Assembly: GCA_945833835.1 (NCBI GenBank)
Contig: CAMAFR010000005.1
Location: 1-64,000 of the forward strand
Direction of reading: 5' to 3'
Length of the DNA: 64,000 nucleotides
Origin: an uncultured Bacteroides sp.
GTDB taxonomy: Bacteria > Bacteroidota > Bacteroidia > Bacteroidales > Bacteroidaceae
The notes below the pieces were generated by a model. It was not told where the DNA came from. It searched no databases and saw nothing but the letters and a program-made list of their open reading frames with translations. Both the position numbers and the translations under genes were made by a program. Shown piece after piece: positions 37,005-40,049 of the stretch; position 1 is the stretch's first letter; every line of letters begins with the position of its first letter.

Positions 37005-37547
37005 TTAGCGTTTTGTGCTGGAAACACCAATCAATTCGGGCAAAATGATAGCTTGTTCCAGTTCCAGCAGACGGCGTTTGCGGCCGATGCCTCCGGCATA
37101 GCCGGTAAGGTGCCCGTTGCTCCCGATGACCCGGTGGCACGGCACCATCAGACTGACGGGGTTGCGGCCCACGGCCTGCCCTACGGCCTGCGCCGACAGG
37201 TGCCGTCGGCCTTGCAGGCGGGCAACAGCCTGCCCGATGGCCTGATAGGTAGTGGTGGTGCCGTAGGGGATAAGGGTCAGCTGCCGCCACACCGCCAGTT
37301 GGAAGGCGGTTCCTCTCAACAAGAGGGGAGGCAGTGCGGGCGGACGCTGTCCGGAGAAGTAGGCATCCAGCCACCCGACGGCTGCCGCCAGCAGCGGCTG
37401 GGAGGGGTCGGGCCCGTCCGCTGAGGCCGGGCAGGGAGCGTTCTTCTGCCCTTCGAACCACAATCCGCTGATGCCGTCGGGCTCGGCGGCGATGAGGAGG
37501 TTGCCTAAGGGAGAAGCGTAAAGGGTGTAGTGGGTCATCTGTTGCAT
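37005..37547 (-). CDS. ogt: methylated-DNA--protein-cysteine methyltransferase
   Basis: GTAFQLAVWRQLTLIPYGTTTTYQAIGQAVA, NPVSLMVPCHRVIGSNGHLTGYAGG. Confidence 0.93.
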   Translation of the reverse strand: MQQMTHYTLYASPLGNLLIAAEPDGISGLWFEGQKNAPCPASADGPDPSQPLLAAAVGWLDAYFSGQRPPALPPLLLRGTAFQLAVWRQLTLIPYGTTTTYQAIGQAVARLQGRRHLSAQAVGQAVGRNPVSLMVPCHRVIGSNGHLTGYAGGIGRKRRLLELEQAIILPELIGVSSTKR

Positions 37548-37580
37548 GGGGCTTTCATGGGGGATGGAAAGGTAGGGGCA

Positions 37581-37606
37581 TAAAAAAAGGGATTCCGCTG
37601 AATCCC
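37581..37606 (-). terminator. Intrinsic terminator in the leader of ogt
   Basis: Minus strand GGGATTC-AGCG-GAATCCC followed by TTTTTTT. Confidence 0.75.
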
Positions 37607-37650
37607 AACCTTTTGTTAACCTTAAATCTAATACTATGAAAAACACAATG

Positions 37651-37681
37651 CAAAGGTACGCATTTTCTGTCAGCCACCAAA
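37651..37681 (-). promoter_or_regulatory. Promoter of the short leader upstream of ogt
   Basis: Minus strand TTTG-N19-TACCTTTG. Confidence 0.7.
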
Positions 37682-37854
37682 TCTTTTGGCGGAAATTTCC
37701 TGCTTTATAACATAATTTAAAGCAGACGGCGGCAGGCGTTAAAGGAAGTTAGTGTTTCGCCGCCCTTCAGAGCGAGTGTAGGCGGTGCGCCAGGGCAGTT
37801 CTGTCCGCTTCGCTATGCCTGACAGTGGGCAGGAGATGAACGGAGAGAGGTGTC

Positions 37855-37932
37855 CGGATGATGTCGGACAATCGTCTGACAGCTGTCAGACAATTGACCG
37901 ACAACTGTCAGACGATTGTCTGACGTCATCCG
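37855..37932. repeat. 78-bp loop-less palindrome built from six 11-bp-spaced GTCnGAC-type words
   Basis: 34 of 39 symmetric pairs Watson-Crick, 2 G.T; words start at 37863, 37874, 37885, 37896, 37907, 37918. Confidence 0.9.
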
Positions 37933-38073
37933 AACGTAAGGGTATGATCAGCGTATGCCGGCACGGAGAAGGACTGAGATGTGAAAAATGTCGGCCGAAA
38001 CGTTGAAATCTATGAAAACTTTGTCGCTGCGTTTCTCCGGCTTGAAGAAAAAGACTAACTTTGCGGCGTTTCT

Positions 38074-38117
38074 GTAAAGCACAACTTGACCGTATGAGTA
38101 AAGCACAACTTGACCGT

Positions 38118-38121
<4 letters not shown>
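38074..38121 (+). repeat. 24-bp exact tandem duplication at the ABC-F start codon
   Basis: GTAAAGCACAACTTGACCGTATGA x2. Confidence 0.97.

Positions 38122-40049
<1,928 letters not shown>

Follow-up and report, generated by a model that had tools for sequence, protein, structure and literature searches.

The usual definition of a REP element is a small hairpin with a GTAG foot. More broadly, the REP, BIME and REPIN elements that accompany RAYT (TnpA-REP) transposases are dispersed extragenic palindromes that form hairpins and whose sequence is specific to the species (PMC2817692, PMC3116915, PMC6006769). The element described here, from an uncultured Bacteroides sp., resembles them in these respects, and in other bacteria the words of which it is composed flank RAYT genes. 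It differs from them in its length of 86 bp and its four fixed 22-bp modules (their hairpins being of 20-40 bp), in the absence, on inspection, of a GTAG/GTGG (or CGTC) foot from the element and its flanks, and in that no cognate RAYT was found in its own genome. CGTC-tagged REPs are likewise REP-like repeats without a known dedicated transposase, though they consist of an 8-9-bp stem, a 4-5-base loop and a CGTC foot (PMC3733652) and not of an array. Non-GTAG repeats around RAYT-like genes, with copies elsewhere in the genome, are also described in the main text of the reports on TIRYT, in the form of the inverted repeats of RAYT subclass 2.1 and the 'atypical secondary structures' of subclass 2.6, the latter found mainly in Bacteroidetes; that text does not describe a constant-step array of palindromic words, though the GGGGTCAG words in the arrays of Acidimicrobiia, discussed below, agree with the TIR motif GGGGWSAS that it gives (PMC3733652, PMC6006769). 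Within the Bacteroidales, the BrickBuilt MITE of Porphyromonas gingivalis is similarly species-specific and intergenic, with about 19 copies and 23-nt tandem repeats predicted to form long stem-loops; its variable repeat number and its leader and tail with IS5-like terminal repeats (PMC4596501) have no counterpart in the copies studied here. Transposon ends of the IS607 type were considered on account of their helical phasing, being several phased motifs that are bound cooperatively, and were rejected by comparison of the descriptions, IS607 sites being direct 9-bp repeats (PMC6188088).

The window, that is, the whole stretch of 64,000 nucleotides analysed here, carries the element between divergent genes, with a FopS-type sRNA and ogt on the left and an ABC-F ATPase on the right. 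A preliminary description had reported a 78-bp loopless palindrome at 37855-37932, and its coordinates and sequence proved exact, with 34 Watson-Crick and 2 G.T pairs among the 39 of the arms. The best loopless palindrome with 39-bp arms reached 21-24 pairs in 30 first-order shuffles of the window and 23 pairs in the window outside the element, and the predicted single-stranded DNA fold of the palindrome has an energy of -33.2 kcal/mol, compared with -12.6 +/- 2.3 for shuffles (z = -9.0). The true extent is taken as 37851-37936, since six genomic copies align without gaps over 86 columns; the inverted-repeat arms are 37852-37893 and 37894-37935. The six units at an 11-bp step that had been described are thus part of a larger structure: the step itself holds, with six consecutive matches of at most two mismatches at 37852, 37863, 37874, 37885, 37896 and 37907, while the element of about 86 bp comprises four 22-bp modules, or eight 11-bp half-units with degenerate outermost words, and its self-shift identity is dominated by 22 bp (0.67), with 11 bp second (0.61). 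The features of the locus are as follows.

37005-37562, minus strand: left neighbour, methylated-DNA-protein cysteine methyltransferase gene (ogt), TIGR00589 above cut-off.
37651-37658, minus strand: TAnnTTTG box TACCTTTG, candidate Bacteroidota -7 element of the leftward FopS/ogt transcript, outside the element, by pattern match only.
37851-37936, no strand assigned: whole palindromic element of 86 bp, delimited as an inverted repeat, by the gap-free alignment of six copies and by inter-copy similarity ending at about 90 bp.
37852-37858, plus strand: outer half-unit 0, degenerate word GTCCGGA, spacer TGAT.
37863-37869, plus strand: half-unit 1, GTCGGAC, spacer AATC.
37874-37880, plus strand: half-unit 2, GTCTGAC, spacer AGCT.
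37885-37891, plus strand: half-unit 3, GTCAGAC, its spacer AATT being the centre of the palindrome.
37896-37902, plus strand: half-unit 4, GACCGAC, spacer AACT.
37907-37913, plus strand: half-unit 5, GTCAGAC, spacer GATT.
37918-37924, plus strand: half-unit 6, GTCTGAC, spacer GTCA.
37929-37935, plus strand: outer half-unit 7, degenerate word TCCGAAC.
38056-38063, plus strand: TAnnTTTG box TAACTTTG, candidate -7 element of the rightward ABC-F gene, outside the element, by pattern match only.
38094-40049, plus strand: right neighbour, ABC-F family ATPase gene, NF000355 above cut-off.

The sRNA of the FopS family (RF04319) lies at 37579-37646 on the minus strand, just upstream of ogt, with 80.5 bits against a gathering threshold of 56, and a terminator-like hairpin falls within its region at 37589-37606. 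On the other side, a 24-bp tandem duplication at 38067-38114 spans the start of the ABC-F gene and creates two possible in-frame starts.

A search of the genome revealed a dispersed family, with at least six full-length copies on six contigs of the same genome, all of them intergenic. The five other copies (contigs C1, C2, C4, C13 and C36) share 79-86% identity in a BLAST-type search, and all six have the same length and exactly six recognisable inner words at 11-bp steps. The words are conserved between copies and many spacer positions vary; beyond the element ends the copies are dissimilar, with nothing in common past about 90 bp. The surrounding genes are unrelated, and several copies have the 3' end of a gene within 50 bp. 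The palindrome is unlikely to be a foldback artefact of the assembly, because it stops before the flanks and because the copies differ from one another. As with REP and BIME elements, this is a dispersed, intergenic, multi-copy palindrome, six copies being few by REP standards. Lack of conservation at orthologous loci and random unit spacing had been named beforehand as observations that would speak against the array; the former was found, no array lying upstream of any of the 30 ABC-F orthologues examined in related genomes, and the latter was not, GTCnGAC pairs inside the own-genome arrays being spaced at multiples of 11. None of these 30 orthologues adjoins ogt, and no empty site can be read in relatives because the neighbourhood is not syntenic there. 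The element is not tied to the ABC-F gene, and the window copy would now be immobile and without a specific role for ABC-F or ogt.

Plain DNA similarity across 36 congeneric genomes detected relatives only in G015 and G028. A covariance model was built from the six own copies; it carries the 11/22-bp period and biases the scan towards it, though non-periodic hairpins can still pass, and a profile search with it found a palindrome of about 86 bp and 22-bp periodicity in ten congeneric genomes and a Mediterranea genome. The words of these elements are species-specific: GACCGACC/GGTCGGTC in G013 and G014, GTTTCAC/GTGAAAC in G025, GTCCGGC/GCCGGAC in G020, CGTCCCAC/GCAGGACG in G002, and GTCGGAC/GTACGAC in G070, which was reached through the Mediterranea record. 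The strongest self-repeat is exactly 22 bp in all 14 elements from 12 genomes, the own genome included, and a covariance-model match in G031 is a hairpin without periodicity. About half of the related families have 22 bp and not 11 bp as a period, so the phasing of a single word at 11 bp is a local feature that belongs to the GTCnGAC version. In G070, with about 30 copies, the 86-bp core is central in a non-coding repeat of about 375 bp with conserved arms (L452-L469). This conserved modular layout with changing words appears to be undescribed. That it defines a distinct class of Bacteroidales hairpin elements, recognised by an approximately 86-bp palindrome of four 22-bp self-complementary modules with words replaced between species, is a tentative proposal that we regard as possible and somewhat doubtful.

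Beyond this lineage, a scan of 85,462 species genomes for exact (GTCnGACn4)x3 returned at least 110 stretches, and several phyla include genomes with tens of dispersed (GTCnGACn4)n arrays. Counted against a reversed control pattern, the two-unit pattern is strongly enriched in array-bearing genomes, the counts being 173 against 2 in Flavihumibacter, 84 against 0 in Acidimicrobiia, 66 against 0 in Terriglobia and 90 against 0 in the Bacteroidales genome RGIG9971, with a less clean 117 against 18 in the Acidobacteria genome G071. Among viral contigs, the 11-bp version occurs in 47 and a control word in 9; a version with a 12-bp step occurs in 42, most of which resemble in-frame coding repeats as judged by eye. 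The element itself was not found in plasmids or phages, and 28 matches to its 15-base end pattern in viral contigs are possibly due to chance. Several viral contigs (L163, L165, L179, L180, L185, L195 and others) share a flanking sequence that is followed downstream by a common GTCGGACAGGT array. Direct 11-bp arrays of the GTCGGACTTTT type occur at L073, L113 and other Celeribacter/Rhodobacteraceae loci, and searches with PF01797 and RAYT alignments found no Y1 gene in the Celeribacter ethanolicus genome (G069).

The search for Y1 transposase genes used PF01797 and alignments of the RAYTs found. Arrays of GTCnGAC at an 11-bp step closely flank a RAYT gene on both sides in Terriglobia SRVP_36 (L294), in Acidimicrobiia (L296) and in Flavihumibacter (L329), touching the stop codon of the RAYT in two of the three, and two-unit 11-bp arrays lie alongside two Saprospiraceae RAYTs. 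One of the RAYT proteins matches NF047646, REP-associated tyrosine transposase, over the cut-off and the others match it below. The chance of arrays on both flanks within 100-150 bp is estimated at about 1e-5 to 4e-5 per genome, when the number of exact pairs is taken as the maximum for arrays and several RAYTs per genome are allowed for. Other arrays were seen at such genes: a palindromic (GTTTATAAAC)n array with a 10-bp step directly upstream of each of these two Saprospiraceae genes (L325, about 150-240; L334, about 130-220), and GTCnGAC arrays with a 14-bp step around a second Flavihumibacter RAYT (L316), whose locus also holds another 14-bp palindromic array (positions, taken together, 1241-1380, 2042-2076 and 241-276).

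Within the own genome, in an assembly that is 89.6% complete, no cognate RAYT flanked by the element was found. Its only Y1/RAYT gene (L229, 1462-2031, on contig C57), between thiC-like and thiH-like genes, was rejected as a partner; it belongs to a different RAYT group and lies beside inverted GTAG-type GTAGGGGCGGACCTGTGTGTCCGCCC repeats, with no array. Searches with PF01797 or alignments found no matching RAYT in G015, G028 or the array-rich G066, G068, G069 and G070, nor was a RAYT present inside the 8-kb array loci from the collection scan, and most array genomes of the own lineage are without such a gene. Transposase genes can disappear while repeats persist (PMC3733652), and by analogy the transposase of this lineage may have been lost and the repeats left behind.

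Covariation bears on whether the element acts as a hairpin or as a duplex. For the full-length hairpin it is 0.217 in the six own copies, compared with 0.181 +/- 0.023 in shuffles, a weak excess reached by 34 of 500 shuffles, and 0.068 in 20 copies of the G070 family, compared with 0.044 +/- 0.006, about 4 standard deviations above shuffles. Hairpins formed by neighbouring units (a 7-bp stem with a 4-base loop), considered as the reason for the 11-bp step, showed no covariation excess in the 20 G070 copies and are unsupported by it. Though modest, the covariation speaks for a single long hairpin rather than small ones between neighbours, and for maintenance of the palindrome as a whole. Template-switching correction of imperfect palindromes could give the same signal, which does not prove a hairpin-binding protein.

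Taken together, these results lead us to favour, with moderate confidence, a dispersed and probably non-autonomous mobile element of the REP/BIME kind with an unusual modular geometry. The preliminary description had listed a mobile palindromic repeat among its alternatives, and this fits better, given the dispersed copies, the orthologous ABC-F loci that lack the array and the like arrays flanking RAYTs elsewhere. Some protein is likely to recognise the array words sequence-specifically, and by association in other bacteria mobilisation of the RAYT type would be the best-supported mechanism. In a single-stranded region, such as a lagging-strand template or a transcription bubble, the 86-nt palindrome would fold into one long hairpin of four 22-bp modules; the repeated words would be bound by a RAYT-type (TnpA-REP) HUH/Y1 transposase with sequence specificity, which would cleave the hairpin and copy it to new intergenic sites. 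We infer that a RAYT mobilised the copies in the own lineage, with the hairpin as its substrate.

Rather less probable is that the element is the core of a MITE moved by a conventional DDE transposase, for example of the IS5 type, acting at flanking inverted repeats, the 22-bp array being an internal minisatellite as in BrickBuilt. The arms around the G070 core recall the BrickBuilt plan of leader, 23-nt repeats and tail (PMC4596501), and no Y1 transposase was found in G070; however, the own-genome copies have nothing in common beyond about 90 bp, their flanks contain no terminal inverted repeats with target duplications as judged by eye, and where a transposase was found the arrays flank RAYTs and not DDE genes.

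An operator or nucleoid-type array, on which protein dimers would bind cooperatively to double-stranded half-sites at 11 or 22 bp, is unlikely. The rigid spacing in every copy and the retention of words within the genome while many spacer positions vary are what such an array would show, but the orthologous ABC-F loci lack it, the intergenic sites of the copies are unrelated, some of them lying immediately 3' of a gene, and covariation is better for the palindrome as a whole than for adjacent units. The cooperative binding of a small dimer at an 11-bp helical phase, as first proposed, is accordingly weakened, since the family is dispersed and 11 bp is often no period.

A structured transcript, be it an RNA hairpin, a terminator or an sRNA-like element, would account for the very stable fold and the covariation along the full stem, but is very improbable here: the candidate TAnnTTTG boxes on both sides point outward, so that neither expected transcript would include the element, it overlaps no terminator-like site, and although FopS adjoins, the only Rfam matches of the palindrome itself are sub-threshold microRNA hairpins. 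Equally little credence is given to the possibility that a short word expanded locally in tandem and that palindromy is a by-product: each word is close to its own reverse complement, so that any array is automatically near-palindromic, and arms of different copies pair almost as well as those within a copy (30.5 against 32 pairs), but module number and length are fixed in the six dispersed copies and in related species, and the 11-bp arrays do not look like coding repeats as the 12-bp-step controls do.

What is conserved here is the geometry of the modules, while the sequence turns over between species; if the layout does define a class of its own, the words would have to be co-evolving rapidly with a protein that recognises their sequence and is none of the RAYTs detectable here. 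Such arrays should not be called operators from sequence alone. They offer a testable case of how an HUH transposase, or another enzyme, recognises repeats, and could unite the 'atypical' structures around Bacteroidetes RAYTs with the TIRYT repeats of Acidobacteria.
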